Source: Siphonodentalium dalli (taxonomy: Eukaryota > Mollusca > Scaphopoda > Gadilida > Siphonodentaliidae). Taken from it: a stretch of DNA of 64,000 nt. Location: contig CP136069.1 of assembly GCA_032622095.1 (NCBI GenBank), forward strand, positions 186,795,122 to 186,859,121, given 5' to 3'. The translations under genes and the position numbers were made by a program. The notes under the pieces were generated by a model, which searched no databases, was not told the origin of the DNA, and saw only the letters and a program-made list of their open reading frames with translations. Below are positions 6,928 to 53,534 of this stretch, piece by piece (position 1 is the first letter of the stretch; each line of letters starts with the position of its first letter).

Positions 6928-7037
6928 CAGAATTATCCCGAGTATGGTCACCATCTCTTACTAATAGCTCTGACTACCCAGCCAAAGGCAACAGTTTTGG
7001 GGGACATTATAATTACCACGAAATTGGGGAACATTTT

Positions 7038-7395: not shown

Positions 7396-7447
7396 ATTAG
7401 GACATTTATTGTACTAGAAGTTGAGAATATATATATAAAACCAGTAA

Positions 7448-7789
7448 TTATACTTCCATGGTGTAACCAAGGAAGTATATACAGAACTTCCAACTTCGGG
7501 GTTTCGACGGAATCTGAAAGAACTCGAAAAATAAGTGTGACAAACTGGCAACCGTTTTGGCGGCAAATTATTTTTTCCGGTCGTTCCGGGGGTCCGAAAG
7601 TCCGGAACGAGGGTGGAAGTACCTACTCGTTCCGGAACGAACAATGGCAGACTGAAAAAAAAACAAACCGTTGATGGAGAGCATCAAACTCGACCTAACT
7701 AACGTTTCGAAAAAAAAACTTCCTCAAATTGTTTTCTCCCGAGTAAAATTTGCATTGTCACTCGAAATTCGCCGTTTTTCCATCCGTTC
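7448..7789. repeat. Left terminal hairpin and leader of the 46-kb insertion
   Basis: Bases 7450-7478 form an almost perfect hairpin: ATACTTCC and GGAAGTAT stems, then TGGT/ACCA, loop GTA. The left subterminal repeat is its 5' half. The rest to 7789 is non-coding, with several GTTCCGG / CCGGAAC dyads (7588-7640). Part of it resembles a very diverged satellite A unit ('ggcaaattattttttccgg'). Confidence 0.6.
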
Positions 7790-10700
7790 TGGCTCGTTCC
7801 GGCCCGTTCCGGGTTCGATATACAGGCAACGACACACTTTATTCGGAAAAATGCAACGTTATCGACGGAAGGGGTTCGTTATGAGTATCAGCAATGAATT
7901 CCAACGCAAAATTGGCAGGGATGCGGCCGTGACAGGGGTTTGAAGAAAACGGAGAATAAGTAGGCGACGTTATGTCGTCGCCGATTCCAAGCTGTGTGGC
8001 AAAAAAATTATTTTCCGGCAAATCAAAAACATCAAAAATGATTTTTTTTTTCTTTGAAACGGTTAAGCTAATTGACACGCATGGTAGTACAGACACGATA
8101 TTTGTCATGGGATCCCAAGAGAGCTCAAAATGGGATTTATGTCTCGTAAAAAGGCAATTTACATGTTATAACTCAATAATAAAAAACACGCCTAGTCGCC
8201 ATTTTAATATGTTTAGCACCATATACTTCATTTCCGTCGGTTCCATTTGTCACAGGAGTATTTTCGGTAGGTATGACGAACGGGGCGAATCATCTGACCT
8301 GCGTAGGGGAGGGGTTAAAAGATAGGGAGAAAAGTAGACGAAATTCCATTCTAGGTCGTTCCAGACCGTTCCAGACTCGGTGTCCATACAAATTGAGGCG
8401 CGTTTACATGAATGGTGCTATGCTATCAATATAAGGGATGCATTAGAAATATTCGAGCTGAAATCAAGCACAAAATTGACAGGGATGCGGCCGTAAGAGG
8501 GGGTTGAAGAAAACGGAGAATAAGTAGACGACGATATATCGTCGCCTGGCAAGAAATAGATTTTCCGGCAAACCAAAAACATCCAAAATGATTTTTTTTT
8601 CTTTAAATCGGTTAAGCTAATTGACACGCATGGTAGCACAGACAGGATATTTGTCATGGGATCCCAAGAGAGCTCACAACGGGATTTATGTCTCGTAAAA
8701 AGGCAATTTACATGTTATAACTCAATAATTAAAAACTCCCCTAGTCGCCATTTTAATATGTTTAGCACCTTATACTTCATTTCCGTCGGTTCCATTTGTC
8801 ACAGGAGTATTTTCGGTAGGTATGACGAACGGGGCGAATCATCTGACCTGCGTAGGGGAGGGGTTGAAAGATAGGGAGAAAAGTAGACGAAATTCCATTC
8901 TAGGTCGTTCCAGACCGTTCCAGGCTCGGTATCCATACAAATTGATGCGCGTTTACCTGACTGGTGCTATGCTATCAATACAAGGGATGCACTAGAAATA
9001 TTCGAGCTGAAATCAAGCACAAAATTGACAGGGATGCGGCCGTGAGAGGGGGTTGAAGAAAACGGAGAATAAGTAGACGACGATATATCGTCGCCTGGCA
9101 AGAAATTGATTTTCCGGCAAACCAAAAACATCCAAAATGATTTTTTTTTCTTTAAATCGGTTAAGCTAATTGACACGCATGGTAGCACAGACAGGATATT
9201 TGTCATGGGATCCCAAGAGAGCTCACAACGGGATTTATGTCTCGTAAAAAGGCAATTTACATGTTATAACTCAATAATAAAAAACACGCCGAGTCGCCAT
9301 TTTAATATGTTTAGCACCATATACTTCATTTCCGTCGGTTCCATTTGTCACAGGAGTATTTTCGGTAGGTATGACGAACGGGGCGAATCATCTGACCTGC
9401 GTAGGGGAGGGGTTAAAAGATAGGGAGAAAAGTAGACGAAATTCCATTCTAGGTCGTTCCAGACCGTTCCAGACTCGGTGTCCATACAAATTGAGGCGCG
9501 TTTACATGAATGGTGCTATGCTATCAATATAAGGGATGCATTAGAAATATTCGAGCTGAAATCAAGCACAAAATTGACAGGGATGCGGCCGTAAGAGGGG
9601 GTTGAAGAAAACGGAGAATAAGTAGACGACGATATATCGTCGCCTGGCAAGAAATTGATTTTCCGGCAAACCAAAAACATCCAAAATGATTTTTTTTTCT
9701 TTAAATCGGTTAAGTTAATTGACACGCATGGTAGCACAGACAGGATATTTGTCATGGGATCCCAAGAGAGCTCAAAATGGGATTTATGTCTCGTAAAAAG
9801 GCAATTTACATGTTATAACTCAATAATAAAAAACACGCCTAGTCGCCATTTTAATATGTTTAGCACCATATACTTCATTTCCGTCGGTTCCATTTGTCAC
9901 AGGAGTATTTTCGGTAGGTATGACGAACGGGGCGAATCATCTGACCTGCGTAGGGGAGGGGTTAAAAGATAGGGAGAAAAGTAGACGAAATTCCATTCTA
10001 GGTCGTTCCAGACCGTTCCAGACTCGGTGTCCATACAAATTGAGGCGCGTTTACATGAATGGTGCTATGCTATCAATATAAGGGATGCATTAGAAATATT
10101 CGAGCTGAAATCAAGCACAAAATTGACAGGGATGCGGCCGTAAGAAGGGGTTGAAGAAAACGGAGAATAAGTAGACGACGATATATCGTCGCCTGGCAAG
10201 AAATAGATTTTCCGGCAAACCAAAAACATCCAAAATGATTTTTTTTCTTTAAATCGGTTAAGCTAATTGACACGCATGGTAGTACAGACAGGATATTTGT
10301 CATGGGATCCCAAGAGAGCTCACAACGGGATTTATGTCTCGTAAAAAGGCAATTTACATGTTATAACTCAATAATTAAAAACTCCCCTAGTCGCCATTTT
10401 AATATGTTTAGCACCTTATACTTCATTTCCGTCGGTTCCATTTGTCACAGGAGTATTTTCGGTAGGTATGACGAACGGGGCGAATCATCTGACCTGCGTA
10501 GGGGAGGGGTTGAAAGATAGGGAGAAAAGTAGACGAAATTCCATTCTAGGTCGTTCCAGACCGTTCCAGGCTCGGTATCCATACAAATTGATGCGCGTTT
10601 ACATGAATGGTGCTATGCTATCAATATAAGGGATGCATTAGAAATATTCGAGCTGAAATCAAGCACAAAATTGACAGGGATGCGGCCGTAAGAGGGGGTT

Positions 10701-13700
10701 GAAGAAAACGGAGAATAAGTAGACGACGATATATCGTCGCCTGGCAAGAAATAGATTTTCCGGCAAACCAAAAACATCCAAAATGATTTTTTTTTCTTTA
10801 AATCGGTTAAGCTAATTGACACGCATCGTAGCACAGACAGGATATTTGTCATGGGATCCCAAGAGAGCTCACAACGGGATTTATGTCTCGTAAAAAGGCA
10901 ATTTACATGTTATAACTCAATAATTAAAAACTCCCCTAGTCGCCATTTTAATATGTTTAGCACCTTATACTTCATTTCCGTCGGTTCCATTTGTCACAGG
11001 AGTATTTTCGGTAGTTATGACGAACGGGGCGAATCATCTGACCTGCGTAGGGGAGGGGTTGAAAGATAGGGAGAAAAGTAGACGAAATTCCATTCTATGT
11101 CGTTCCAGACCGTTCCAGGCTCGGTATCCATACAAATTGATGCGCGTTTACCTGACTGGTGCTATGCTATCAATACAAGGGATGCACTAGAAATATTCGA
11201 GCTGAAATCAAGCACAAAATTGACAGGGATGCGGCCGTGAGAGGGGGTTGAAGAAAACGGAGAATAAGTAGACGACGATATATCGTCGCCTGGCAAGAAA
11301 TTGATTTTCCGGCAAACCAAAAACATCCAAAATGATTTTTTTTTCTTTAAATCGGTTAAGCTAATTGACACGCATGGTAGCACAGACAGGATATTTGTCA
11401 TGGGATCCCAAGAGAGCTCACAACGGGATTTATGTCTCGTAAAAAGGCAATTTACATGTTATAACTCAATAATAAAAAACACGCCGAGTCGCCATTTCAA
11501 TATGTTTAGCACCATATACTTCATTTCCGTCGGTTCCATTTGTCACAGGAGTATTTTCGGTAGGTATGACGAACGGGGCGAATCATCTGACCTGCGTAGG
11601 GGAGGGGTTAAAAGATAGGGAGAAAAGTAGACGAAATTCCATTCTAGGTCGTTCCAGACCGTTCCAGACTCGGTGTCCATACAAATTGAGGCGCGTTTAC
11701 ATGAATGGTGCTATGCTATCAATATAAGGGATGCATTAGAAATATTCGAGCTGAAATCAAGCACAAAATTGACAGGGATGCGGCCGTGAGAGGGGGTTGA
11801 AGAAAACGGAGAATAAGTAGACGACGATATATCGTCGCCTGGCAAGAAATTGATTTTCCGGCAAACCAAAAACATCCAAAATGATTTTTTTTTCTTTAAA
11901 TCGGTTAAGTTAATTGACACGCATGGTAGCACAGACAGGATATTTGTCATGGGATCCCAAGAGAGCTCAAAATGGGATTTATGTCTCGTAAAAAGGCAAT
12001 TTACATGTTATAACTCAATAATAAAAAACACGCCTAGTCGCCATTTTAATATGTTTAGCACCATATACTTCATTTCCGTCGGTTCCATTTGTCACAGGAG
12101 TATTTTCGGTAGGTATGACGAACGGGGCGAATCATCTGACCTGCGTAGGGGAGGGGTTAAAAGATAGGGAGAAAAGTAGACGAAATTCCATTCTAGGTCG
12201 TTCCAGACCGTTCCAGACTCGGTGTCCATACAAATTGAGGCACGTTTACATGAATGGTGCTATGCTATCAATATAAGGGATGCATTAGAAATATTCGAGC
12301 TGAAATCAAGCACAAAATTGACAGGGATGCGGCCGTAAGAGGGGGTTGAAGAAAACGGAGAATAAGTAGACGACGATATATCGTCGCCTGGCAAGAAATA
12401 GATTTTCCGGCAAACCAAAAACATCCAAAATGATTTTTTTTTCTTTAAATCGGTTAAGCTAATTGACACGCATGGTAGCACAGACAGGATATTTGTCATG
12501 GGATCCCAAGAGAGCTCACAACGGGATTTATGTCTCGTAAAAAGGCAATTTACATGTTATAACTCAATAATAAAAAACACGCCGAGTCGCCATTTTAATA
12601 TGTTTAGCACCATATACTTCATTTCCGTCGGTTCCATTTGTCACAGGAGTATTTTCGGTAGGTATGACGAACGGGGCGAATCATCTGACCTGCGTAGGGG
12701 GGGGGGTTAAAAGATAGGGAGAAAAGTAGACGAAATTCCATTCTAGGTCGTTCCAGACCGTTCCAGACTCGGTGTCCATACAAATTGAGGCGCGTTTACA
12801 TGAATGGTGCTATGCTATCAATATAAGGGATGCATTAGAAATATTCGAGCTGAAATCAAGCACAAAATTGACAGGGATGCGGCCGTAAGAGGGGGTTGAA
12901 GAAAACGGAGAATAAGTAGACGACGATATATCGTCGCCTGGCAAGAAATTGATTTTCCGGCAAACCAAAAACATCCAAAATGATTTTTTTTTCTTTAAAT
13001 CGGTTAAGTTAATTGACACGCATGGTAGCACAGACAGGATATTTGTCATGGGATCCCAAGAGAGCTCACAACGGGATTTATGTCTCGTAAAAAGGCAATT
13101 TACATGTTATAACTCAATAATTAAAAACTCCCCTAGTCGCCATTTTAATATGTTTAGCACCTTATACTTCATTTCCGTCGGTTCCATTTGTCACAGGAGT
13201 ATTTTCGGTAGGTATGACGAACGGGGCGAATCATCTGACCTGCGTAGGGGAGGGGTTGAAAGATAGGGAGAAAAGTAGACGAAATTCCATTCTAGGTCGT
13301 TCCAGGCTCGGTATCCATACAAATTGAGGCGCGTTTACCTGACTGGTGCTATGCTATCAATATAAGGGATGCACTAGAAATATTCGAGCTGAAATCAAGC
13401 ACAAAATTGACAGGGATGCGGCCGTGAGAGGGGGTTGAAGAAAACGGAGAATAAGTAGACGACGATATGTCGTCGCGTGGCAAGAAATTGATTTTCCGGC
13501 AAACCAAAAACATCCAAAATAATTTTATGTTTCTTTAAATCGGTTAAGCTAATTGACACGCATGGTAGCACAGACAGGATATTTGTCATGGGATCCCAAG
13601 AGAGCTCACAACGGGATTTATGTCTCGTAAAAAGGCAATTTACATGTTATAACTCAATAATAAAAAACACCCCTAGTCGCCATTTTAATATGTTTAGCAC

Positions 13701-16094
13701 CTTATACTTCATTTCCGTCGGTTCCATTTGACACAGGAGTATTTTCGGTAGGTATGACGAACGGGGCGAATCATCTGACCTGCGTAGGGGAGGGGTTGAA
13801 AGATGGGGAGAAAAGTAGACGGAATTCCATTCTAGGTCGTTCCAGACCGTTCCAGGCTCGGTATCCATACAAATTGAGGCGCGTTTACCTGACTGGTGCT
13901 ATGCTATCAATATAAGGGATGCACTAGAAATATTCGAGCTGAAATCAAGCACAAAATTTACAGGGATGCGGCCGTGAGAGGGGGTTGAAGAAAACGGAGA
14001 ATAAGTAGACGACGATATATCGTCGCCTGGCAAGAAATTGATTTTCCGGCAAACCAAAAACATCCAAATTTTTTCTTTTTCTTTAAATCTGTTAAGCTAA
14101 TTGACACGCATGGTAGCACAGACAGGATAATTGTCATGTGATCCCAAGAGAGCTCACAACGGGATTTATGTCTCATAAAAAGGCAACTTACATGTTATAA
14201 CTCAATAATAAAAAACACCCCTAGTCGCCATTTTAATATGTTTAGCACCATATTCTTCATTTCCGTCGGTTCCATTTGTCACAGGAGTATTTTCGGTAGG
14301 TATGACGAACGGGGCTAATCATCTGATATGCGTTGGGGAGGGGTTGAAAGATGGGGAGAAAAGTAGACGAAATTCCATTCTAGGTCGTTCCAGACCGTTC
14401 CAGGCTCGGTATTCATATAAATTGAGGCGCGTTAACCTGACTGGTGCTATGCTATCAATATTAGGAATGCATTAGAAATATTCGAGCTGAAATCAAGCAC
14501 AAAATTGACAGGGATGCGGCCGTGAGACGGGGTTGAAGAAAACGGAGAATAAGTAGACGACGATATGTCGTCGCGTGGCAAGAAATTGATTTTCCGGCAA
14601 ACCAAAAACATAAAAAATGAATTTTTTTTCTTTAAATCAGTTAAGCTAATTGACGCGCATGGTAGCACAGACAGGATATTTGACATGGGATCCCAAGAGA
14701 GCTCACAACGGGATTTATGTCTCGTAAAAAGGCAATTTACATGTTATAACTCAATAATAAAAAACACCCCTAGTCGCCATTTTAATATGTTTAGCACCAT
14801 ATACTTAATTTCCGTCGGTTCCATTTGTCACAGGAGTATTTTCGGTAGGTATGGCGAACGGGGCGAATCATCTGACCTGCGTAGGGGAGGGGTTAAAAGA
14901 TAGGGAGAAAAGTAGACGAAATTCCATTCTAGGTCGTTCCAGACCATTCCAGGCTCGGTATCCATAAAAACTGAGGCGCGTTAACCTGACTGGTGCTATG
15001 CTATCAATATAAGGGATGCATTAGAAATATTCGAGCTGAAATCAAGCACAAAATTGATAGGGATGCGGTCGTGATAGGGGGTTGAAGAAAACGGAGAATA
15101 AGTAGACGACGATATGTCGTCGCGTGGCAAGTAATTGATTTTCCGGCAAACCAAAAACATCCAAAATGATTTTTTTTTCTTTAAATCAGTTAAGCTAATT
15201 GACACGCTTAGTAGCACAGACAGGATATTTTTCATGGGATCCCAAGAGAGCTCGCAACGGGATTTCTGTCTCGTAAAAAGGCAATTTACATGTTATAACT
15301 CAATAATAAAAAACACCCCTAGTTGACATTTTAATATGTTTAGCACCATATACTTCATTTCCGTCGGTCCATTTGTCAAAGAAGTATTTTCTGTAGGTAT
15401 GGCGAACGGAGGGAATCACCTGACATGCGTTGGGGAGGGGTTAAAAGATAGGGAGAAAAGTAGACGAAATTCTATTCTAGGTCGTTCCATACCATTCCAG
15501 GCTCGGTATCCATAAACCTTAGGCGCGTTAACCTGACTGGTGCTATACTATCAATAAAATGGACGCATTAAGGATATTCGAGCTGAAATCAAACACGAAA
15601 TTGACAGGGATGCGACCGTGAGAGGTGGTTGAAGAAAACGGAGAATAAGTAGACGACGATATGTCGTCGCGTGGCAGGAAATTGATTTTCCGGCAAACCA
15701 AATACATCCAAAATGAATTTTGTTTCTTTAAATCAGTTAAGCTAATTGACACGCTTGGTAGCAGAGACACGATATTTGTCATGGAATCCCAAGAGAGCTC
15801 GCAACGGGATTTATGTCTCGTACAAAGGCAATTTACATGTTATAACTCGATAATAAAAAACACCTCTAGTTGACATTTTAATATGTTTAGCACCATAACC
15901 TGACTGGTGCTATGCTATCAATAGAGGGGATGCATTAGGAATATTCGAGCTGAAATTAAAAACGACATTGACAGGGATGCGGTCGTGAGAGGGGGTTGAA
16001 GAAACCGGAGAATAAGTAGACGACGATATGCCGCCGCCGATTCCAAGTCATGTTGCAAGAAATTTACTTTCCGCCAAACCAAAAGCATCCAAAA
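7790..16094. repeat. Satellite A: 549-bp monomer array
   Basis: The marker ATGGGATCCCAAGAGAGCTC or a near variant recurs at 8108, 8656, 9205, 9754, 10302, 10851, 11400, 11949, 12498, 13048, 13588, 14138, 14686, 15234 and 15781: 15 monomers with a period close to 549 bp. Central copies differ by few bases. The first (7790-8107) and the last few are increasingly diverged. Each monomer has a CGACGATATATCGTCG palindrome and a doubled CGTTCCAGAC motif. Short ORFs appear on both strands in every copy (105 aa on +, 79 aa on -) because 549 is a multiple of three and the copies are alike. They match no family I know. Confidence 0.95.
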
Positions 16095-17015
16095 TCGGTC
16101 GAAATTTTTACCCTTCTCGAAAATGGTCCATACCCCATGTTCACCCCGCCCCCGATTAAAATTGTTGGGGGTCGGGTGTTTCTAGGGGTATTTGGGGCGG
16201 GCCATCCACCATTAGCGTCAAATCTGTGGAAATCCTTACCATTCTCGAAAATGATAAATCCCCCATTTTCGCCCCTTCGTTGTGGCACCCTCGGGGTTAA
16301 GGGTGGGGAATCGGGTGTTTCTGTGTGGTATTTGAGGCGGGCCACCCACCCATGCCGAAAAATCGGTCGAAATCGTGACCGTTCTCGAAAATGGTCCATT
16401 CCCCGTTTTCACTCACTCGCTGTGCCATCACCGGAGGTAATTGGTGGCGGTCGGATGTTTTCATGTGGTATTCGGGACGGGCCACTCAACCATGCCGTCA
16501 AATCGGTCGAAATCCTTATCTTTCTCGAAAATTGTCCATACCCCATGTTTACACCCTAGGGCTAGCACCCCAGGGGTGATTGGTGTGGTCGGGGTATTTT
16601 GAGCGGGCCACCAACCCATACTGTCAAATCGGTCGAAATCATTACCGTTCTCGAAAATGGTATATACCCCATTTTAATACCCTCGGGTGGCACCCTCAGG
16701 GGTGGCGGTTGGGTCGGGGTGTTTCTAGGTGGTATTTAGGGCGGCCCACCCACGAAATCCTTATGGTTCTCGAAAATGTTCCATACCCACCTCCCCCACT
16801 TGCAATTGGTGCCACCCCGAGGGTGATGGGTAGGGTTCGGGGTGTTTCCAGTGGTATTTAGGGCCGGTCACCTACCCATGCCGTTAAATCGGTCGAAATT
16901 CTTACCGTTCTCGAAAAATGTTTCTTACCCCCATTTTCACCCCTCGTGGTGGCACCCCGTTGTGATAGGTGGGGTCCTGGTGTTTCTATGAGGTTTTTGG
17001 GGCTGGCCATCCACC

Positions 17016-20000
17016 AATGCCATCAAATCGGTCGAAATCCTTACCGTTCTAAAAATGGCCCATACCCCGTTTTTACACCCCTCGGGGTGGCACACCGGGG
17101 GTGATGGTGGGGGATCCGGGAGTTTCTATGGTATTTTGGGCGGATCAACCACCCATGCCGTCAAATCGGTCGAAAACCTTACCGTTTTCGAAAATGGTCC
17201 TTACCACATTTTCAACCCCCTCGGCTGGCACCCAGGGGGTGATGGGTGGGGGTCCGGGAGTTTCTAGGGTATATTAGGCGAATCACCCACCCGTGCCGTC
17301 AAATCGGTCGAAATCCTCACCGTTCTCGAAAATGGTCCATACCCCATTTTCACCTCGTCGGGGTGGCATCCCCGGGATGATGGGTGGGGGTCGGGTGTTT
17401 TAGGGGGTATTTGGGCGGGCCACCCACCCACGACGCCAAATCGGTCAAAATTCGTACTTTCTAGAAAATTGTCCATACCATATGTTCACCCTTCGGGTGG
17501 CACCACATGGAGGTGATTGGTGTGGTCAGGGTGTTTCTAGTGGGTACTTGGGGTGGGCCACTCGCCAATGTCGTCAAATGGGTGGAAGTTCTCACCGTTC
17601 TCGAAAATGGTCCAAACCCCATTCGGTTCGGTGTATTCCTAGGTGGTATTTGGGGCGGGCCACTCACTCATGCCATCAAATCGGTCGAAATCCTAATCGT
17701 TCTCGAAAGTTGTTCATACCCCATTTTCACCCCTACGGAGTGACACCCTCGGTGTGATCGGTCGGGTTCTGTGTGGTTCTGTGTGTTTCTAGATGGTATT
17801 TGGGGCGGGCCATCCATCCGTGTCGTCCAATCCGTGGTATTTGGGGCGAGCTACCCACATTTTCACCAATCGAAGTGGCACCCCCCCCCCCTCGAGTGAT
17901 GGTGGGGGTATGGTGTGTCTAGCGGTATTTGTGGCGGGCCACACACCCATGCAAGGCGTGATATCGGTCGAAATCCACACCGTTCTTGCAAATGGTCCGT
18001 ACCCCATTTCCTACTCCAAGGGTTGCCACCCGGGGTGATGGGTAGGGATCGGGGTGTTTCTAGGGGTATTTGGGGCTGGCCAACCACTCATGCCGTCAAA
18101 TCGGTCGAAATCCTTTCCGTTCTCGAAAATGGTTCATAGCCCATTCTCACCCTCGAGGTGGCAACCCGGGGATGATGGATGGGTGATTCGGGAGTTTATA
18201 TGGTATTTTGGACGTATCACCCACCCATGCCGTCAAATCGGTTCTCGAAAATTGTCCATACCCCATTTTTACCTCATTGGGTGGCATCCGCGTGGTGATG
18301 GTGGGGGTCGGTTGTTTATAGGGGAATTTGGGGCGGGCCACCCACACATGCCGTCAAATTGGTCTAAAACTTGCCGTTTTCGAAAATGGTCCTTACCACA
18401 TTTTCAACCCCCTGGGTGGCACATCGGGGGCGGGAGGGGCGGGTGATGTCCTGGAGTTTCTAGGGTATATTAGGCTGATCACCCACCCATGCCGTCAAAT
18501 CGGTCGAAATCCTTACCGTTCTCGAAAATGGTCAATACCCTATTTTGACCACCTCGGGTGGCACCCAGGGGTGATGGGTGGAGTCGCGTGTTTTTAGGGG
18601 GTATTTGGGGCGGGCCACCCACCCATGACGTCCAATCGGTGGAATTTCTTACCGTTCTCGAATACAGTTCATACCCCATTATCACCCATTCGGGGTGGCA
18701 ACACCCAGGGTGATGGCGGGTTCGGGGTATTTCTAGGGGGTATTTGTGGCGGGCCACCCACCCATATCGTCAAATCGATCGAAATCCTTACCATTCTCGA
18801 AAATTGTCCATACCCCATGTTCACCCCTACGGAGTGGCACCACCGGTGTGATAGGTGGGAGTCGGGGTGTTTCTAGGTGGTATTTGGGGCGGGCCACCCA
18901 CCCATGCCGTCAAATCCATACGGCATTTTCACTCCCTATGGGTGATACCCCCTCCACCGGAGTGATGTGTGGGGGTGGGGTTTTTCTAGTGGGTATTTGG
19001 GACGGGCCACCCACTCTGTGGGCGGCACTCCTCGTGGTGATGTGTGGGAGGATCGGTTGTTCATATGGGGTATTTGGGGCAAGCCACCGACCCATGTCAT
19101 CAAATCGGTCGAAATCCTTACTGTTATCAAAAATGGTTCAAACCCCATGTTCACCCCATTGGGATGGCAGCCCATGGGGTTGATGCGTCGGGGTCGGCTT
19201 GTTTCTAGGAGGTATTTGGGGTGGCATATTTTCACCCACATGCCATCAAATCGGGCGAAATCCTTTATGTTCTCGAAAATGGTCCTTACCCCATTTTCAC
19301 CCCCTCGGGGTGGCAACCCGGGGTGATGGGTGAGGGATCCGGGAGTTTCTAGGGTATTTTGGGTGGATCACCCACACATGCCGTCAAATCGGTCGAAATC
19401 CTTACCTTTCTCGAAAATGAACCATACCCCATTTTCACAACCTCTGGGTGGCACCCCACACGCAGGTGATTGTTATGGGATTAGGGTGTTTCTAAGGTGT
19501 ACTTGAGATGGGCCTCTCACCCATGCCGGCAAATCAATGGAAATTGTTACCCTCCTCGACTTGTCCATACCCCATTTTCACCCATCGGGGTGATGGGTGG
19601 GTTCGGGGTATTTCTAGAGCGGATTTGGGGCGGGCCATCCACCCATGCCGTGAAATCGGTCGAAATCGTTACCGTTCCCGAAAATTGTCCATACCCCATT
19701 TTGACCCGCTCGGGGTGGCACCATTGGGATGATGGTTGGGGTCGGGTGTTTATGAGAGGTATTTGGGGCGGGCCACCCACCCATGCCGTCAAATCGGTCA
19801 AATCCTTACCGTTCTCGAAAATGGTCCATACCTCATTTTCACACCCTCGGGTGGCACTCCCGGGGTAATGGGTGGGGGCCGGGGTGTTTATAGGGAGTAA
19901 TTGGGGCGGGCCACCCACCCATGTCGTCAAATCGTTATAAATCCTTACCTTTATCGAAAATTGTCCTTACACCATTTTACACCACTCGGGGTGGCGCCCG

Positions 20001-20563
20001 CGGGGTGATGGGTGGGGCATCGTGGTGTTTCTAGAGGGTATTTGTGGCAGGCCACCAAATCGGTCGAAACCTTACCGTTCTCCAAAATTGTCCATACCCC
20101 AATTAACACCCACGGGGTGGCACCCAGGTTGATGGGTGGGTGGTCGGGGTGTTTATGCGGTATTTGTGATAGCCTACCCACCCATTCCGTCAAATCGGTC
20201 TAAATTCCTACCCTTCTCGAAAATTGTCTATACCACAAGTTCACCCCTGAGTTTGGGTCGGGGTGTTTCTATGGTAAATTTGGGCGGGCTACCAATCCAT
20301 GCCATGAAATTGGTCGAAATCTTTACCGTTCTCGAAAATGGTCCATACCCATTTTCACCAATCGGGGTGGCACCCCGGGGTGATGGATGGGGGTCCGGTG
20401 TTTCTGGGAGGTATATGGGGCGGGCCACACACCCATGCCGTCAAATCGGTTGAAATCCTTACCGTTCTCGAAAATGGTCCATACCCCAATTGTAACCCCT
20501 CGGGTGGCACCCCGGGTAACGAGTGGCGGTCGGGGTGTTTCAAGGGTGCACTTGGGGCTGGCC
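17016..20563. repeat. Satellite B higher-order unit, copy 1 (3.55 kb)
   Basis: This segment of about 26 distinct B monomers repeats next door at 20564-24113. The period is 3,548-3,549 bp. I count only about six to eight differences, so the pair is over 99.7% identical while neighbouring B monomers differ strongly. Confidence 0.9.
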
Positions 20564-39445: not shown

Positions 39446-39448
39446 AAA

Positions 39449-39473
39449 GAGATACATATATATATATACCATC

Positions 39474-39525
<52 letters not shown>
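39449..39525. repeat. TA microsatellite
   Basis: (TA)n at 39449-39467 and about 39477-39525, directly after the LINE 3' end. Probably its tail or a slippage expansion of it. Confidence 0.85.
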
Positions 39526-39527
<2 letters not shown>

Positions 39528-39529
39528 CT

Positions 39530-40422: not shown

Positions 40423-40430
40423 CCTATATA

Positions 40431-43400: not shown

Positions 43401-44155
43401 TCACAACTGATCCCGTCTATCTCAAATCGTAAATGTATTATTTTTTAAAATAATTATTGGCATCGCGTATGATCGATACCTGCAGAATATATCCCACTAG
43501 GACATTGGTATCCATAGTATTCATGCTGTTGTCGTCATACAAACAAAACAAACACAATCATGCGTGATTAGTTCCACAGATTTGTATTGAAGTGCTCTAA
43601 ATTGATAACAAATTACGACACATACTCTTCGTTAAAATATGCAGTCGAAAATGGCGAATCAAGAAGGATGATCTTGGATTCATCGATGTGGCTGGAAAAT
43701 ATTTTTATTCGGCCGTTTCCGAAAATAAAAATACTGACAGACATACGGATTACGACATGTTTCAATGGGTGGAGATGAGGATAATGAGAGTATTCTAAAG
43801 GAACGGCATATAAATAATATAATTGTGAAATTGCCTCGTAATATTGTGGGATAAGTGGGATTAACTTTCATTTTATATATCTAAAGGAACTCCTGCATGC
43901 AAACTACTTATGTCCGCGCTGCGTGACATTCGCATAAATTTGGAGACAGCATGGCGTTTATTAAAATAATTCATATGCCGCCTATATGGAGGAAGCTTTT
44001 ATTTTATGTAATCTTGTGATATATTTCTATAATACCATATGGGCGCACAAAACCTAAATTAAACAGTAAAATATAATATAGACACATAAACAAACTCAAA
44101 TGTTAATGTCGATGCGTACGTGCACATGTACGTCAGTGAGATATCCCGAATTTAA
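40431..44155. other. No gene recognised
   Basis: AT-rich sequence. An ORF on the minus strand (40952-41287, 111 aa) has no domain I know. A short inverted repeat GGCAGATATAT / ATATATCTGCC lies at about 43158-43205. An AAACGCTCTTTAT motif sits at 41520. Confidence 0.45.
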
Positions 44156-44156
44156 G

Positions 44157-44810
44157 TAGTCTTGTTGATTTGCTACGATGCTGGTGGGTATACCACGGAG
44201 TTGAAATATGCTGATATGGTAAACTGATTCTGTTAAGAAAATGTACCGTTATTCTTTCGGAACATACATGTTGCAGTGTCTGGATATATATACAATAACG
44301 GAACAATTTCTTAACACCAATATTTGTCACTACCAGCACAATGGCAAGTCAGCAGGACCCACCAGCATCAGATCAAATTAGCAGGATAACTTAACCGGGA
44401 TGGAAAGTGTTTGCCTCGCAATGACTGGACCTTGAAATCAGCTCTATCTCACCTATGACATACATGCACTGTGTCACACTTATAGTAAGGTGGTCACTTT
44501 CACCGCTGTGGCCTGCTCCCACAACTAATGATACACACGGAGTTACCATAGCTCACATCCCTGTCGACGCGCCCGTGACCTGCCGGGTGTCACCTTGTTG
44601 TCTCGATGTCCGTTTCGATATAGATTGGTGTGTGTGTGTATAGATGATGATCGCCGCTCTTCATTGCTATAAATATTCATTTAACACTGGTTCGCCCTGG
44701 TTATTTGGTCATGTGGTCTTAGCAGCATCAGTTCGCCATATCAGCAGCATGACAGTTCACCTGATCCCACCAGCATCATAGCAAATTAGCAAGACCATTT
44801 AACCAGTGTG
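44157..44810. repeat. Short dispersed repeat in direct and inverted copies
   Basis: The core CCCACCAGCATC..AGCAAATTAGCA occurs at about 44358-44386 and 44765-44793. An inverted copy lies at about 44160-44190 (TTGATTTGCTACGATGCTGGTGGG). The direct copies also share 'taaccggg/taaccagt' just downstream. Likely fragments of one small element. Confidence 0.5.
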
Positions 44811-47800
44811 TGGTTATTATATCACACCATCGTTGACTGACTGTTAGCATATTTTAATATGTTGTGTACACTCGGGCGATTTATATTGGTCCACCGGGAG
44901 GTGTCAATTACCATGTCTAATGACCATGAAGTGATAATTTCGTCTGACGCGTGTCTGTTCCCGGGTGTCCCATCGCAGCCGGCATTTCATTACAAATATT
45001 TGTGCATCTATTTACAATGCATAATGTATATATTTACATGAATTATATTCAACTATGGTCGTATGGTATGCATACATGTACATCAGTATAATAATGTTCA
45101 TAGTGTTCTCCTGCACTTAACTGTGAAAGACTGAAACCAAAGTTTCAGACAAACTAGGACAATCCGGTGTGTGTGTAATTTAGAAATCAGTTTCCACTCA
45201 CGGGAAGTATATTAGTTATAAACGCTCTTTATCGACATACAACTTATAATATTTCGATATTTGCCTCCCACAACTCAACAAAATGCAATGTTAAGAAGAT
45301 AACAGTCCACTGGCATGTATGCTGGAATATGGGAATGAGGACAGACTACCATTGTTCATGGGTCATGTGCTTCCTTTGACCACCCAACTCGGCATACGAT
45401 AGTACAGCAAAGTGATTTATAATGATGCCCCTTGGGTATACGACTATCTGGTTGTACCACGAGGCATGATTGTGTTATATTGAGTAAACTCATAGGAATT
45501 TTTTCGAGAACAGACAAACACCTATCTGGACTAAGAGCCAGTCTGTTAGTTTTTGATGGAAGGTGAATAACTCTATACACTTGTATTTGGTACAATTAAC
45601 CTCACCACCATAAAGACAGCAATTAGAAACACACAAAACGTCATCCCGTATATAGATGTATGTTATCTTCGTCATCTACGTTGTATTTGTTAAAATGTTA
45701 ATGGGAGAGGGGTGGATGTAAGTTGTTAAAATTTGTGCCCCTATCCCTCTTGTAATATTATATTACAATAAAATATGTTTAAAAAAAAGACACGATATAA
45801 GACTTATATATGTATTTGGGGTGGTGGGGTCAATTGTGCGAAATTCCCCTGACTATATATCTCCTAGTTTTTTTTATTTTTATGCATTTTAGTTAAATAA
45901 AGTGGGAGTTTTGGGGTAAATATGAGAATCTCTATCAATTAGTGGAAAATCTTCGGCGTGACGTCATCGCATGCGCTAATATTAAACGTGTGTCTTACCA
46001 ATAATTATGAAGTTGATTTTGTGAGTTAATTATGTGATAAATATAGTTACGATGTACATGTAGGTTGTATACAATGCTATGTATTGGCATCAAGCTAATA
46101 CTATTCCGAAATTTGCCTTGCCAACTCAACATCATGCAATGTTAAAATAGCACATAACAGTCGGGAACATATGATTCAATATAACCATACTGTATTATAT
46201 TGATGCCCAAAGTAAGGTAGACATATATTTTGCATTGTGTTGTGTCGGGGACAGTCAAAAATTATTTTAAAAAACAGGCGTCCTATTTGAACATATATTT
46301 TACAATTAACTTGCGATGAACGCTCTTTATTGGAATAATGCATAGCCCGTGCATACCATGTCCTCAACAGAACAACCAGATAGGACCGAAATAAGAACAG
46401 TCTCACGCATACAGCGATGCGTTCATAAGCACTGCGCTCTCGTCGCACACCGTTCCGATACGTGCGCCGAATCTGGAGCGTAATTAGCTACAGCGCCGAT
46501 CTCAGCGCGTTTGCGCGCTCTATCTGGCGGGCCGGGTAAGGTCAGATCCGATATATCGTAGCCAGGAAGTTTATTGTTTTTCTACTGCGGTCGTTTTCCG
46601 TTTATTTTGAAATACTCAGAAACTAATTGCAGTAGGAACGCGAAATCTCTATCGATTGTAGGCATCTAAGGTCTACTACAAATAAAGGTATCCGCATACC
46701 GGTCCAAGGTTTCTAGACGGAGTTATGGCCCTTTTACGATTATTTTTCATTATTATTTTTTTTATTATACTCCACACTTTTGCAACGCCTTAATATCTGA
46801 AAGTATGGGGAGTATCGAACTGAAAGTTTGTACGTATGTTGGGGTCAATGAGTTCTAACCTATCGGCATACAATGAATATTGTCCGCGTTTACTCCGCGG
46901 AGTTATCTCCCTTTATATGAACAAATTTGATTTTATTATCTCGGAAATTATAAGGAGCAGAACATCGAAAATTGGACCTCAAAGTTTGCAAGTGTCGGTT
47001 CAGTATTGTGGTTTGGGGAGGGGTGTTCTGTGGTACCAATTTTTAATTCTTCTCCGAATCAGATGAAACTTGGAATATAACATAAATTTGTCTATCTAAT
47101 TGTAATGCGGGAACTATGAACGAATGTTGTACAAGCTCACATCTCATTCAACAAACTATCCGTTACTTATTCATAAAAGTCATATTATGCTACACGCGAA
47201 ACGAAGATAACTTTTGGGGAATCCAGTGTCCGAAACGGATCGAAATCGACCTGTTCCAGAAAAGTCATTCATTTTGTTTTCACTTTTTGAAAAAGGTTCC
47301 ATTATTTCAACCTAAACTTTTGGACTTAGAAAATTTCCTCCTATATATATATAATATATATTATCTATATATACGCGAAAAATGTGTCACTCCCCCTTCT
47401 CCTTCCTCCGGCTACCCCATCTCAGGCGGATGGAACCTAGCTCCGATTCGAACGCACCCTTCTCGCGGACCAGGCTCATTCCTCTACCTGGGAACCGATA
47501 GAACGCCCACCGAATTCCAACAATCATTTCCAGACTGGTATATTGGTATGAGTACATATCGGACCTGTTAAAAACCAAATAACTTCGATTTTAATATAAA
47601 CCCACCTATTCGTAAATTTTGTAGCCCATGGTGTGTGCTAAATTATAATTTTAACGTGTATAGTGTGTTATGAGCTATCTGCGTGTGTGCATTTCACTTT
47701 TGAAGTTTCGTTCGCATCTTCAACGCACTGCATCTCATATACATCCAAACAAAATACAACATTACATTAATTTGATCAAACAAACCTTAGTTATACGATG

Positions 47801-48318
47801 TATACTTATACTAACGTAAAGACGACGTATATCCAATTATTTCATTTGCGATAACAACGATAAACACATAGAACAATGCAAACATCATCATTTTCGTAAG
47901 AACAATTTGTATATTGTTATAAACCGTAGCATACTGCAATGGACATTCAATTCTTTCCGCTATTATATGTCTGCCGAATTGGAAATGATTCCTTTTATAC
48001 TTTCACATAATAATACACCACTGATAGTTTCGTAGGCCATCATTTAAGTCTTGTCAAAAAGCAAACGTGAAACAAACGCTCCTTATTCCTACCATAGAGG
48101 AGTGTACTTATAGAGAACCCTCTTTTCTGTTCGATTACGTTCAAACCCAGTGTAGATTGCTTTGTGTGTTGTTGTTTATCATTCATTTTATTCATCGGAT
48201 CGAACGTTCATTGATCGCGCTTCATGTTATGTGCTTGTTCAAACCACTTATCTGCCCATGTTGAGCAAGTCTTATGAGAATGGGACTGATATTTTCGGAG
48301 TGATGTGGAGTGTTCAGG
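44811..48318. other. No gene recognised; weak repeats
   Basis: Segments 45252-45320 and 46110-46165 share 'ATTTGCCT..CAACTCAACA' and 'ATGCAATGTTAA'. AACGCTCTTTAT motifs lie at 45220, 46319 and 48074 (variant). The 151-aa ORF at 47116-47571 crosses low-complexity and TA tracts and shows no domain. Confidence 0.45.
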
Positions 48319-48319
48319 C

Positions 48320-48419
48320 ACCATTTATTTTAGAATTATTACCTGTATTATACCCCTGCAACCAGTTGTTGGTGGGGTGAGGACGGTATACTGGAATCAG
48401 CATGTCCGTCCGTTCATCA
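48320..48419. repeat. 100-bp direct repeat, copy 1
   Basis: Begins ACCATTTATTTTAGAATTAT and ends CCGTCCGTTCATCAATATAT. About 95% identical to 50116-50215. Both copies run directly into TA microsatellites. Confidence 0.85.
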
Positions 48420-48424
48420 ATATA

Positions 48425-48467
<43 letters not shown>

Positions 48468-48536
48468 ATTATATATTTTGGAAGATCTGTTTGTTTGTTT
48501 GTGTGTTTGTGTGTTTGTGTGTTTGTGTGTAATCGA
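48420..48536. repeat. TA and TGTGTTTG microsatellites
   Basis: (TA)n at 48430-48466 is followed by (TGTTTG/TGTGTTTG)n at 48488-48530. Downstream to about 49000 is degenerate sequence of a type common in invertebrates ('cgatttcgatgaaacttgg'). Confidence 0.85.
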
Positions 48537-49074
48537 TGGACTCGAAAATGGCCCAGCCGATTTCGATGAAACTTGGTATGTGGGGGTATTTTCGGGCCAG
48601 GAGCAACATAGGCCTATTAATTTGTCCGTGCGAGGTCAACTTTTCACGTGCCGAGGTCAAATCGGTTTTTACGCCGTTTTGCGCTAATATATTTCAGTTC
48701 GGTGCTTACAAATCGATTCGAAACAGCGCGAATAATAACATGCCAGTCATGATGACACTATGAGAATCTTTCGTGTTTCTTCTTTCCAACGATATATAAT
48801 ATGTATGTATCCGTTTTAGTTATCTGCCTCAATTATTAAGAAGAAGTGGTACGATCTTCTATCAGGGTAAAAACAATGCGTAACTTCTATGACGTCGTTA
48901 GAGGTCATAAAGTTAGATCACGTTAACTCTTACCCGGCCGATGCATTTGACTGTTTCAGACGTCTTGGCGATATCTCGGGCACCGATGGTAATTTATCTT
49001 TACGTTGAAACTTGAGGCGCGTTTATATACTTCAGTGGAAATCAAATCGGGTTAAACTGGCGGATTTTTACGGA

Positions 49075-49370
49075 CGAAATTTGATGCATAGGGTATCTCG
49101 GTATCCGCTGGGCCGATTTCCCGGTATCCGCTGGGCCGATTTCCACCATTTTTGGGGTGTTGGTGTTTGACCCCACCTGACTTTGACCTTCAAAATGGTC
49201 AATTCAAGGTCAAATCGGGTAAAACCGGATGGATTTCGACGGGTACTTTTGTCGGGTACTTTTGTTCGGGCACTGTGTTTTGGACGGGTCAAATCGTGAC
49301 CCCACTTGACCTTGGCCTTCAAAATAGACAATTCAAGGTCAAAGCCCGGACGAAGTCGGGTCACCTTCTA
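49075..49370. repeat. Short tandem duplications
   Basis: GGTATCCGCTGGGCCGATTT occurs twice (about 49099 and 49123) and CGGGTACTTTTGT twice (about 49239). An approximately 120-130-bp unit sharing 'accccac.tgac.ttg.ccttcaaaat.g.caattcaaggtcaaa' occurs at about 49170 and 49300. No coding signal. Confidence 0.65.
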
Positions 49371-49598
49371 GTATATATATATATATATATGTGACTAGTT
49401 TGATAAATCAACATGGCGACTTTTTCTATCAAAAAACGTCTTTAATTCCTAGGCCTTTCATGCCTTCGTTGCAATTTTCAAGGAATGACGTGTATAACAC
49501 TGTGACGTCATATAACAACATGGGGGATAACTCTTGACGTCAAAGTTAAGAACTATTGAGTTTTGTCAGGAATTTGAGTTTGAAATAATCTTCCTTGC

Positions 49599-49808
49599 TC
49601 AGTCTTTCCGAATCACATTATAGAATGGGAAGATTGTGTACATCCCTCTACCACATACATCTATATGTTCGCTTAGAGGGATCATCCTAGTGTTGGGATC
49701 TCTAATTTGTTGTCGATGGATCCGATTTCTCTCGACTAGGGTATCACCTGTCTGTCCGGCGTATGATTCACCACATCCCGAACATGTGATGCAATAAATG
49801 AAATTGCG
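49599..49808 (-). pseudogene. GIY-YIG endonuclease fragment (Penelope-like element?)
   Basis: The minus strand reads IYCITCSGCGESYAGQTGD..., matching the N-terminal GIY-YIG core with a CxxC pair, followed by a conserved-looking basic stretch and SEHIDVCG. About 69 codons are open between stops. CxxC-containing GIY-YIG domains are typical of the C-terminal endonuclease of Penelope-like retroelements, so I infer a fragment of one. No upstream RT is visible. It starts 8 bp from the hairpin at 49816. Confidence 0.6.
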
Positions 49809-49815
49809 TTATTTA

Positions 49816-49894
49816 CAATTTAATGTTGCATTTGGCATTATTTTTTGTCCGTTTTTGAGCCAATTAAAATTGTGCCAAATGCAACATTAAATTG
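49816..49894. repeat. Perfect 22-bp hairpin
   Basis: Arms 49816-49837 and 49873-49894 are perfect inverted repeats built on AATGTTGCATTTGGCA. The loop is 35 nt. Perfect arms in an otherwise degenerate neighbourhood suggest a recent or constrained structure. Confidence 0.85.
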
Positions 49895-50115
49895 TCAATC
49901 ACGCACGCACGGACAAAGCGTTACACAGGATGGTGTAGACAACGTGTTCCGCGCTACTGATCATGTCTTATTCAGGCACCAAGTGTAGGATTCCTTGCAA
50001 TCCGTTAATCATCAGTGTCGGTGATCGCTCGTCGTGTGTAAAACGTTGAGCTAGGTCTGTGGCTCTTTTGTGACCAATATTAAGTCAAGGTTGGTGAGGG
50101 GAATGAGGCCGCTGG

Positions 50116-50215
50116 ACCATTTATTTTAGAATTATTACCTGTATTATACCCCTGCAACCAGTTGTGGGTGGGGTGGGGATGGTACACTGGAATCAGCATG
50201 TCCGTCCGTTCATCA
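50116..50215. repeat. 100-bp direct repeat, copy 2
   Basis: Partner of 48320-48419, same orientation, 1.8 kb away, also followed by TA repeats. The GIY-YIG fragment lies between the two, so they may be terminal repeats of one decayed element or two copies of a dispersed family. Confidence 0.85.
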
Positions 50216-50234
50216 ATATATATATATATATCTA

Positions 50235-51650
50235 ATTGTTCCCGATAGATTTGGGAGGATTATAGTAATCAACATGTCCGTCCGTGCGTCCGTTCGATAT
50301 GGTTTAATATTGATAACTATAGTATTGGTTAACTTATTCGTATGTTACATGTCCGTGGTATTTGGAATTGGAGTATAGTATATCTTCAAGTATACAAATA
50401 TTCGCCTTTATCTCATTCTGGTGAATATAATGATTTCATAGAGACGTTATAAATTAATGGACTGTCCCATTATGCAGAAGAATAACACAGGACGCTCTCT
50501 AAACCAGTCGCGTTCATTCCCCCTGTACGTAATTTCTGTCATTATGTGACTCTTTTCAATGCATATGCCGTCGGCAAATATGTGTCTATACGTATTTCAT
50601 GCAATTGTGTTCGTGCTTCGGCCCATTAACGTCAACAACAGAAACATGAGCAATTACTTGATTAATATGTATCGTTGTTACAGTATTTCACTGTTCACAA
50701 AACAATTTAATTCATATAACTAAATGTATATCAACACGCAATGTGCATTATAATTTGTGTCAGTAATTGCCAGGCGTCAGTGATTTCTACGTGCAGATGA
50801 ATTGTTCTAACGGGAAATCATTTAACTGCACGCAGGAACAACCGTCACTGACATCATATTCCCCAATCCGTGCAAATGTTTTACATTTTACAATTTTTTT
50901 TAAATGGAACCAGCTGCAGCATATATCCGAAGAGATTCGTATGACATATTATGCTACACACATATCCGACTAAGTCACTTCGATCCTACTGTCTTATTTT
51001 AATAGTATTTCATTGAATACAAAACAGTTCTTATGTTAATACATATCACCCATGTAACTAATCCATAACAATATATTCGAGGTGTTTACCAATGCTAACA
51101 GCGAGATGATGTACAAGATTTTTGGCATTCCCTTTTAGTGTAAACGTATTTTATCGCATAATAACGCAACGGGATTGAGACATAAGTTTTGCAACTTACA
51201 AAGGGTCTCTCTCCCCATATAATTGTATTACACAAAATGAAAATAAAATACAATTACACACAAACATGATAATTCATATGTATAACATCGTTTCACTCAT
51301 AACAATATATGATATAATCTAAAGTGTGACCATAACGGTGGATATTTCACTTTATGGGGGGGGGGGGGTCGTCTCGATAGATTTGGGAGCAATATAGTAA
51401 TCAACATGTCTGTCCGTGCGTCCCGATTGATTTACAAAAGTGTAAACACTGGGTTTCGTTACAGCACGTGACTCAAACATATTCCTTTCTTATTGCTCAA
51501 GGAGTAACAATGTATATCAGTGTTTGTCGGGCGTCAAATATGTATCGTGCTGTTGAATCATTCCACCCACAAATCGCCCCACTGCATATAGAAACAACCG
51601 TCATCGTACAGTAACTGACAAACTTTACAAGACGTTTATCCGTAAATCAC
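50235..51650. repeat. Diverged duplication of about 1.1 kb
   Basis: The string 'CGATAGATTTGGGAG..(T)ATAGTAATCAACATGTC' occurs at 50239 and 51378. Further matches follow, for example 'gtcagg/gggcgtcaa', 'gttctaac / gaatcatt' and 'aacaaccgtca' at 50770-50850 and 51530-51610. A poly-G run lies at 51357-51368. No gene seen. Confidence 0.5.
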
Positions 51651-52057
51651 AAATCGACTCTTGTCTGGATTTGAACGATTTGTTGGACGACATATGTGAC
51701 CCAGCTCGCCACAACAATAACAAGCTGATCAACATGATGTCCATGCTGCGATGTAAAGAGTACATGTAGCATTTTGTATATATTTATTGGACATATAATG
51801 GGATATACAGTGGACATGAATATACTCTCCAAGCCACCAATAAATTCAAGGGTTGGCACAATCCTGCCATAGTCTGAGTATAGGGACACACTATACACCA
51901 GGATGAATAAACCGATTTTTTTTCAGCCCTATTATTTTTTTATCGCATATTCCGAATGGGAAGAGTGATTCGGACCCGAATATACATCTTAAAAGGTTTT
52001 TTTCTCCGAGGCCTTTCCGCTATACGGGGAACAGAAAAATTGCACCTATTCTTCCCA

Positions 52058-52990
52058 CCCAATCCAAACGGGCTAATTAAAGAGCAAGGTAATGCCGTAG
52101 CAGGTACATTGGGATATTCTATGCACGCCCCCAAAGCTTGACCGCCATACTATACAAGTAACATATCCAATGGAGGATGCGAGTCGGGTGGATTGAGACT
52201 TTTGGAAAATTCCACCGAAAATCGCAAGCGGGCAAAATTCAAACATCAAGATAAAAACATTTTTATGAGTACATCTGATGGGTAGTGTTCATGCGTAACT
52301 AAAGTGCCATTTTCGAATTTTCAGATTCAACGGTTTACTCGTGAGGACGCTGTATAATATAAATATGTATACTTAAGTAGTCTATCGCTAACCCATTTTT
52401 AGCCCCAAGTCCAAACGTGCTAATCGGTATACTGTAGGTACACCTCCAAGATTTTACCAGTCAACCATAAATGCAACCTGATCAACGGAGAGCTTGTGTC
52501 GGGGTGTGTTCAGACTTGGCAAATTCCACCGGAAACAAATGCAGAAAATTACTCAAAAAATCAAACTTTGCGATAAAAACTTGTTGACGATTGGACGTGG
52601 TTAGTAGTATCCAGGCGCAACTTTAGTACGATTTTATAAGTTTTAGAGTGGACCTTTTAATCCTGGTAGCGCGTAACGTTGTGAACTCGTGATATATATT
52701 ACTCAAATTAAAACGCACTCTTATTGAAGCCAAATTCAAACGGGATTATCACAACGATATACCATAGATACGCCCCCAAATTTTCACTGCTCTACTATGA
52801 AAGCAACCTGCCCGACGGAAAGCGCGTACGCCCTGGGAAGGTCGAGCCTTTTGGAAAATTCCACCGAAACTCGTAAAAGGGAAAAAATGGAAAATCGCGA
52901 ATACAATGTTGTATATCTTGAACACTGCATGTGTTTGGTAGTATATATACGGGCGGCATTAAAGCGGACGGGTAAGCACTCAGGTGGCAT
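52058..52990. repeat. Diverged tandem repeat, three units of about 330-350 bp
   Basis: Units begin near 52058, 52407 and 52734 with 'TCCAAACGGGCTAAT'-like sequence. Shared blocks are 'gcccccaaa.ttt.ac.gc..a.tat', 'GGAAAATTCCACCGAAA' and 'gtagta(t)..c..gcg.aact'. The short ORFs are not conserved. Confidence 0.65.
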
Positions 52991-53474
52991 TATCGATTGT
53001 GATATAGTTATCTATCGATTACAGTTAACTCTATTACAAAGACGTTAATGACTATAATGTAGCGAAGACACCCTTGAATTAATTAATAAGCGGTCTTTCC
53101 TCCTCCATTAAAACTAAACAATTCTGAATCCGAAACTGAAAGAACTATCCAACATAACAGAGTTATGGTACACTAATATGCTTTACACCCTTTTGATATA
53201 CATGTCGATTACTATATATATATAATCCGACATGCCAAATTTCGTAACCGTTGAACAGGATTTGGGCGTCCTGGGGAGGGATTATAATTAGCCCTAAAAT
53301 ATATCCCTACCGAATACAAATGAACTGATGCATTAGACAGTAATTAATCATTATGACATAGACCTTTGGAATATATTTCTTATTTAGAAATGTCAATGCA
53401 AGTCCACCATCGGATCACAAATCACCAATATGCATTCCATGAAGAGAAACACACATATACGCATATACTCACAT

Positions 53475-53534
53475 GGATGGGATGGGATGGGATACCATGG
53501 AAGTATATCTGATTCCATGGAATCTGACCTCTAG
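53475..53534. repeat. Right terminus of the 46-kb insertion
   Basis: A GGATGGGAT microsatellite (53475-53493), the right subterminal repeat ACCATGGAAGTAT (53494-53506), the palindrome GATTCCATGGAATC (53511-53524), TGACCT, and terminal CTAG at 53531-53534. This order (microsatellite, subterminal repeat, hairpin, end) is the one described for Helentron-type non-autonomous elements. Confidence 0.65.

Follow-up and report, generated by a model that had tools for sequence, protein, structure and literature searches.

A 46-kb satellite-bearing insertion in a gypsy long terminal repeat of Siphonodentalium dalli: a probable giant non-autonomous Helentron

The closest described systems are found among non-autonomous Helentrons (HINEs) and Helitrons. 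The Cg_HINE elements of Crassostrea gigas, as described in PMC7492417, carry a 5′ subterminal inverted repeat (subTIR) with a complementary inverted repeat, a 3′ subTIR with a palindrome and central satellite-like arrays, at times of two kinds consecutively, and insert at TT without target-site duplication. The DINE-1 and mite HINEs and Helentrons of PMC4067079 share subTIRs of 12–15 bp, a 3′ stem-loop and flanks of two or more Ts, and in DINE-1 an inverted repeat is nested with the 5′ subTIR. In oysters, long arrays of the satellite CgiSat01, with up to 89 monomers, lie between Helitron boxes (PMC8268682), and maize Helitrons of up to 39 kb are given in a 2019 review (PMC6431247). An insertion that resembles these systems in such features was analyzed here in a stretch of 64,000 nucleotides of Siphonodentalium dalli (contig CP136069.1; hereafter the window, whose first letter is position 1). 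It comprises 46,087 bp within the 5′ long terminal repeat (LTR) of a gypsy element, and it is very probably a giant non-autonomous Helentron, inserted at TT, belonging to a large family and presumably mobilized in trans by rolling-circle replication.

The locus also differs from each of these systems. The longest array in the set of PMC7492417 has 29.3 monomers, whereas the insert holds three satellites and a tail of 17.5 kb, and the giants of its family measure 46–49 kb. The microsatellite in the left module of Cg_HINE, a feature described for oyster HINEs and not required elsewhere, has no counterpart in the insert, where the tandem-repeat scan listed none in 7480–7894. The DINE-1 and mite elements differ in size and satellite load, and autonomous partners are identified for them in PMC4067079. 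CgiSat01 is a single satellite whose arrays reach about one-third of the insert size (89 × ~166 bp, by our arithmetic), and the maize Helitrons, which at 39 kb are smaller than the insert, are plant elements with gene fragments as cargo in PMC6431247, while the cargo here consists of satellites. The kind of element is already known; what appears new is that this size, a load of three satellites and relatives of giant length elsewhere in the genome occur together, a combination that was not found in the titles and abstract openings of the open-access papers listed in literature searches.

The insertion point was determined by comparison with the intact 3′ LTR of the same gypsy element, which stands in for the empty site (Table 1). 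As the preliminary description of this DNA had stated, the 5′ LTR is cut at one base and its last 207 bp resume 46,087 bp further on; the two pieces (766 + 207 bp) sum to 973 bp, the same length as the intact copy. The split and intact LTRs differ by 12 substitutions in 970 aligned bases (1.24%) and 2 gap positions. The empty target read from the intact LTR is ACCAGTAA-TT-GTATTTG, and this uninterrupted target, ACCAGTAATTGTATTTG, is broken at its TT, giving the junctions AATT/ATACTTCC on the left and CTAG/TTGTATT on the right. Because TT occurs once in the target but at both junctions, zero duplication and a TT duplication are indistinguishable. The empty-site comparison thus gives a TT target without target-site change, where a 2-bp TT duplication is possible; the earlier claim of neither loss nor duplication holds fully for loss, and for duplication it holds except for the ambiguous TT.

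Both ends of the insert show the structure expected of HINEs. The perfect pair of subTIRs had been given as 13 bp and is in fact 14 bp long; its 13-bp core has no further exact match in the window, and two others match with 2 mismatches. If the element starts at 7448, the 5′ subTIR lies 1 nt from the 5′ end, and the 3′ subTIR is separated from the 3′ end by 27 nt at its outer edge and by 40 nt at its inner edge, while distances of 2–4 nt and 38–60 nt are reported for the mite elements (PMC4067079). The left hairpin and, on the right, the palindrome preceding a terminal CTAG, both noted previously, were recovered as described, the palindrome at a distance of 10 nt from the end. In folding as single-stranded DNA, the hairpin reached a z-score of −5.8 with 0 of 200 shuffles as good, and the palindrome a modest −2.0 with 6 of 200 as good. 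A GGATG-type run adjoins the 3′ subTIR, and the element starts with TTATAC or ATAC, without a 5′ TC. A scan of both strands for the combination of hairpin, inverted copy, 3′ stem and CTAG gave 83 positions (36 + 47). Stem and CTAG were both present at five overlapping positions, 7449–7453 / 53494–53498 (stem 7), at five AT-repeat positions around 39454–39476 (stem 5), and at 49181/49335 (stem 8), which are merely ~150 bp apart. These extra positions indicate that the pattern by itself is not unique; only the pair 7449–7453 / 53494–53498 matches the LTR break.

The ends occur in large numbers in the host genome (2.23 Gb in 9 contigs). The exact 31-bp 5′ end (7449–7479) was found at 5,588 places and the exact 40-bp 3′ end at 1,097, with 0 for the control in both cases. 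The longer left end (7449–7790) gave 88 candidates, of which 40 were scored, all at full length with 96–100% identity; the right end (53335–53534) gave 1,359 candidates, and the 40 scored had 92–100%. Further copies of both ends had been predicted, with their absence named as grounds for abandoning the earlier reading, and the genome search excludes that absence. At the right-end loci read (30 of the 40 listed, window included), TT follows the four-base end in 30/30, and the terminal bases are CTAG in 27 and CTAT or CTAA in 3. The 3′ flanks of these loci mostly differ, 7/30 matching a unit repeat of the 1.73-kb type described below; the right ends L026 and L027 represent one duplicated place, 99.9% alike over 1.5 kb.

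The giant form was also found at other loci. When the 40 listed left ends were paired with the 30 right ends on the same strand within 100 kb, three pairs resulted, namely the window copy (46.1 kb) and copies on contigs C6 (48.9 kb) and C2 (47.7 kb). Both are colinear with the insert from 7447 to 53536 (in C2 to 53533) in the order of 549-bp array, 138/302-bp arrays and tail, and their homology ends at the insert edges. The identity to the insert is 94–99% in long pieces and down to 78% in pieces of the 138-bp array; jointly, the two copies match 36,065 of its 46,087 bases at ≥90%, and a single base was counted beyond its edges. These colinear copies show that the window copy is not alone in its giant size. 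An element far above the usual few-kb non-autonomous size, as previously proposed, is thus borne out, and the claim extends to two further giants. A 600-bp piece from the middle of the tail (42300–42899) gave 522 candidate places, and the 40 scored were all at 99–100%; such a place lies on the same strand 17–60 kb downstream (limit 80 kb) of at least 14 left ends out of the 40 listed, the one in the window among them, compared with 1/40 on the upstream side. The closest left copy read, at C2:5327026 (5.33 Mb), shows 9 differences in 1,843 bases, with one gap. It diverges less than the LTRs (12/970), as expected if the movement postdates the LTR pair. The occurrence of the giant form at other loci indicates that it most likely entered the LTR largely as a unit, with local duplications following.

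The number of exact 5′ ends exceeds that of exact 3′ ends by 5.1:1, and many of the 5′ ends lie in tandem units of about 1.73 kb. Upstream of the C6 giant, the stretch read contains four 1,733-bp units in full and stops within a fifth; each complete unit opens with the 5′ hairpin, and the units are 99.9–100% identical. The tail of the C6 giant contains four complete units with 0–3 differences per 1,733 bases from the upstream ones, the last partial one having more. On contig C1, a sample of 99 plus-strand ends among 100 listed 5′ ends, a small part of the 5,588, was compared with the first 12 listed 3′ ends. Between 1 and 22 exact 5′ ends precede 11 of these 12, and since some runs hold long gaps, the spans are upper bounds. 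The median spacing of 5′ ends is 1,733 bp, where 57 of 98 spacings fall at 1,700–1,770 bp, 12 at 200–230 bp, and 29 elsewhere. In the stretches read at C1:214.44 Mb and C1:169.46 Mb, the order is units, tail and 3′ end, and in 2 of 11 C1 3′ ends the next 5′ end starts 2 bp past the 3′ end. Head-to-tail joints of a 3′ end and a 5′ end, CTAG-TT-ATAC, were observed at L039, L042, C1:319943/319945 and C1:332314/332316. Several 5′ ends per 3′ end are what aberrant rolling-circle replication would give; in plants, the organization of multiple 5′ ends with a single 3′ end is attributed to that process in PMC12628747. The family resembles the plant Helitron arrays (Xiong et al. 2016, as cited in PMC12628747) in its tandem excess of 5′ ends before one 3′ end, and differs in being a Helentron, in its 1.73-kb unit, and in the giant satellite-bearing copies of the same family.

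The features of the insert agree with Helentrons and HINEs in the subTIRs of 12–15 bp, the nested 5′ inverted repeat, the 3′ palindrome, the TT target, and central tandem repeats in one orientation; the Rep/helicase open reading frame (ORF) that marks autonomous Helentrons was not seen inside it in the Pfam search of 36001–53534 or, judged by ORF length, in 7448–36000. A canonical Helitron (TC...CTRR, A^T target) would account for the 3′ CTAG, which fits CTRR, and the AATT target permits an A^T reading at the window locus. It is nevertheless highly improbable, as there is no 5′ TC, subTIRs with a nested inverted repeat occur at the ends, and TT after the four-base end is the family pattern in all the right ends read. 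Within the earlier assignment to Helitron/Helentron-like elements, the rolling-circle reading is therefore supported, the Helentron/HINE side fits, and the canonical Helitron fits less; the flanks then described as A/T or T/T can indeed be read as TT. That satellite-rich sequence was misjoined into the LTR by the assembly is likewise very unlikely. Satellite arrays are hard to assemble and our reading depends on the assembly, but both ends are family-wide termini that meet at one LTR point without loss, and the same giant is present elsewhere, which is not what a misjoin would respect.

A different history, in which a small HINE of a few kb entered the LTR, its satellites expanded in place, and later nested insertions built the tail, must also be considered. 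The two 3.55-kb copies in the 138-bp array, 99.8% identical, stem from a recent internal duplication, and further duplications are found at 1.6 kb (98.0%) and among the 302-bp blocks (mostly 96–99%). The 549-bp array has ~14.6 copies in the window and 9.7 in each of two sister copies, and three of the 13 matches within the tail are 89–95% alike. All of these fit such growth. However, the same order of parts and a similar size recur at two other loci, and the remaining 10 matches within the tail are just 62–78% alike. Pairwise divergence among the 97 near-full 138-bp monomers averages 17.7%, against 1.2% for the LTRs, and at 2.5% divergence these monomers form 69 clusters. At 97.5% identity, the non-redundant share of the insert amounts to 32.6 kb out of 46.1 kb. 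The diversity of the monomers and the non-redundant share, compared with the LTR divergence of 1.24%, indicate that most of the content should predate the insertion, barring gene conversion between the LTRs. Growth from a small HINE is thus already contradicted as the main cause and is, on the whole, unlikely. The three satellite families said to fill the insert were all confirmed, with units of 549, 138 and 302 bp; 17.5 kb of its bulk is, however, the tail, unmentioned earlier, which is not a high-copy tandem repeat in the window copy.

Several observations weigh against a giant Helentron that arrived largely as a unit. No Rep/helicase was found in the insert by the Pfam search of 36001–53534, and at two intact Rep loci, partly sampled, no link to the element ends was found beside the ORF. 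Parts of the insert longer than 300 bp have no C6 or C2 match at 90% identity (15898–24473, 40039–40420 and 48456–49371), and the tail of the C6 giant contains 5.5 unit copies absent from the window; these indicate that local growth or exchange took place. Some of the duplications in the tail are young, as given above, and the two LTRs may seem younger than they are if gene conversion has acted on them. The C2 giant ends in CTAT, without the final G, and no match to the 3′ end of the C2:5.33 Mb copy was found at C2:5363300–5366299. A unit-type repeat, 80–85% alike, lies directly upstream in 7/7 of the other left ends read, and the C2 giant also has one (84%). With such repeats upstream of other left ends and both giants, the window copy is the only one with a verified 5′ insertion point. 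Slightly more than half of the spacings on C1 agree with the unit length, and the array lengths depend on the assembly, so that exact values may be wrong.

If the insert is a trans-mobilized giant Helentron, the process may be described as follows. A Helentron Rep/helicase acting in trans would nick one of the many 5′ ends, and rolling-circle replication would displace a strand through whatever follows, in this case the tail as well as the satellites of 549, 138 and 302 bp. Once the 3′ palindrome and CTAG of the family are reached, the strand would be joined to a TT target. A 5′ end would have come to sit upstream of satellite DNA in the ancestor of the giants, so that replication from there to the 3′ end of the family included ~39 kb (7448 to ~46.5 kb), and from ~46.5 kb the common unit and tail of the family would resume. 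The window copy would have begun at the giant's own 5′ end, with any upstream 5′ units left behind.

It has long been asked how satellite blocks arise at new sites on chromosomes. With a 46-kb block of three satellites whose target can be dated and whose empty site can be read, and with its colinear relatives, it can be tested directly whether a rolling-circle transposon moves whole arrays, and the sister copies of similar size indicate that elements of the rolling-circle type are able to transport very large satellite blocks. The surplus of 5′ over 3′ ends, about 5:1, provides a genome-wide readout of aberrant rolling-circle replication. It is possible, although rather doubtful at this stage, that the satellite DNA is self-mobilizing, with thousands of tandem monomers each having a rolling-circle start, so that replication could start from any of them and proceed as far as the next 3′ end of the family, and with blocks of tens of kb transposable and spreading, including to chromosome ends.

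So far, no gene has been recognized in the insert. No Pfam domain above the cut-off was obtained in six frames of 36001–53534, and the longest ORF, of 244 amino acids, lies in a satellite (7448–36000 was judged by ORF length). The tail matches to Tna_leader, Peptidase_C74 and DUF6094 were dismissed, as all are below their own cut-offs, and 37622–38032, which by eye looked like the C-terminal part of a long interspersed nuclear element (LINE), gave no homologue when searched. For the Helitron Rep domain, 150 of 457 candidates in the host genome were scored, giving at least 151 matches; many of these lie in open frames, several of which are 2.2–2.9 thousand amino acids long. The scanned portion of one Rep-bearing frame includes OTU and DUF6570 domains, and OTU is given as a Helentron-associated domain in PMC4067079. 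A Rep/helicase copy sharing the ends, which the preliminary description had envisaged, was sought at two sampled Rep loci, and none was tied to the ends. One of them, C1:214.418 Mb, which is followed by a 3′ end of the family after 28 kb, was suspected as the autonomous partner and then rejected: no family ends occur in the 10 kb before its Rep domain or in 9 kb from about the ORF end (214431001–214436354 lies outside these stretches), and the downstream 3′ end belongs to an array of 1734-bp units, which it terminates. At the other, C2:5.304 Mb, there are no family ends within 18 kb, and the subTIR scan around the two ORFs gave weak candidates only. In a similar case at C1:169.48 Mb, the 3′ end alone was read. 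The exact 5′ hairpin had 0 matches in viral contigs; a loose pattern was matched 5 times among prokaryote genomes and once among viral contigs, which is about chance by estimate, and was not used.

Table 1. Positions of the insertion, its parts and the interrupted LTR in the window.
Feature	Position	Strand	Remark
Giant non-autonomous Helentron-like (HINE) insertion, 46,087 bp	7448..53534	+	clean LTR split; end copies and colinear giants elsewhere
5′ subTIR, 14 bp	7449..7462	+	perfect inverted match to 53494-53507
3′ subTIR, 14 bp	53494..53507	-	perfect inverted match to 7449-7462
5′ hairpin: subTIR plus inverted repeat 7466-7479 (13/14)	7449..7479	+	
3′ perfect palindrome GATTCCATGGAATC	53511..53524	+	10 nt from end
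Terminal CTAG	53531..53534	+	
Left part of interrupted gypsy 5′ LTR, 766 bp	6682..7447	+	aligns to 60088-60853
Right part of interrupted gypsy 5′ LTR, 207 bp	53535..53741	+	aligns to 60854-61060
Intact gypsy 3′ LTR, 973 bp	60088..61060	+	stand-in for empty site
Left module	7480..7894	+	40 scored copies of 7449-7790, 96-100% identity
549-bp satellite array, ~14.6 copies	7895..16037	+	
138-bp satellite array, broken by 302-bp blocks	16092..35932	+	123/125 unit matches on + strand
Two tandem copies of 3.55-kb block (17014-20564, 20562-24114)	17014..24114	+	99.8% identical
302-bp satellite block 1, 3.0 copies	25486..26393	+	
302-bp satellite block 2, 2.0 copies	28080..28685	+	
302-bp satellite block 3, 4.0 copies	28865..30074	+	
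Tail, 17.5 kb, mostly old diverged duplications	35933..53474	+	common to sister copies
Remnant of 1733-bp unit (unit elsewhere bears 5′ end)	46564..46978	+	98.8% to unit positions 21-435

Within the interior, the region of the 302-bp satellite (25356–30074) shares stretches at 68–87% with the start of the tail (36278–37286), which itself has an old duplication ~1.47 kb apart at 69%; judged by this likeness, the third satellite may be derived from the tail-start region. An old tandem repeat of ~315 bp, 62–66% alike, is located at 52108–52951 near the right end.

Runs of 5′ ends and several 3′ ends were observed close to contig ends, at C1:1637-351133 (G000) and at C9:214901595-214901797, where the contig ends at 214911753. 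From this placement, the family may form a subtelomeric satellite; Helitrons are reported in subtelomeric extensions of Oscheius tipulae (PMC8022731).

The gypsy element has gag, protease, reverse transcriptase, RNase H and integrase domains, detected in six ORFs scanned separately, and the listed relatives of its protein include Ruditapes and Apostichopus sequences. Its putative target duplication is CTAG (6678–6681) / CTAC (61061–61064), with 3 of 4 bases the same. An RVT_1 (reverse transcriptase) domain at 61063–62499 lies directly 3′ of the gypsy 3′ LTR, which indicates that the gypsy element is inside or beside another retroelement.

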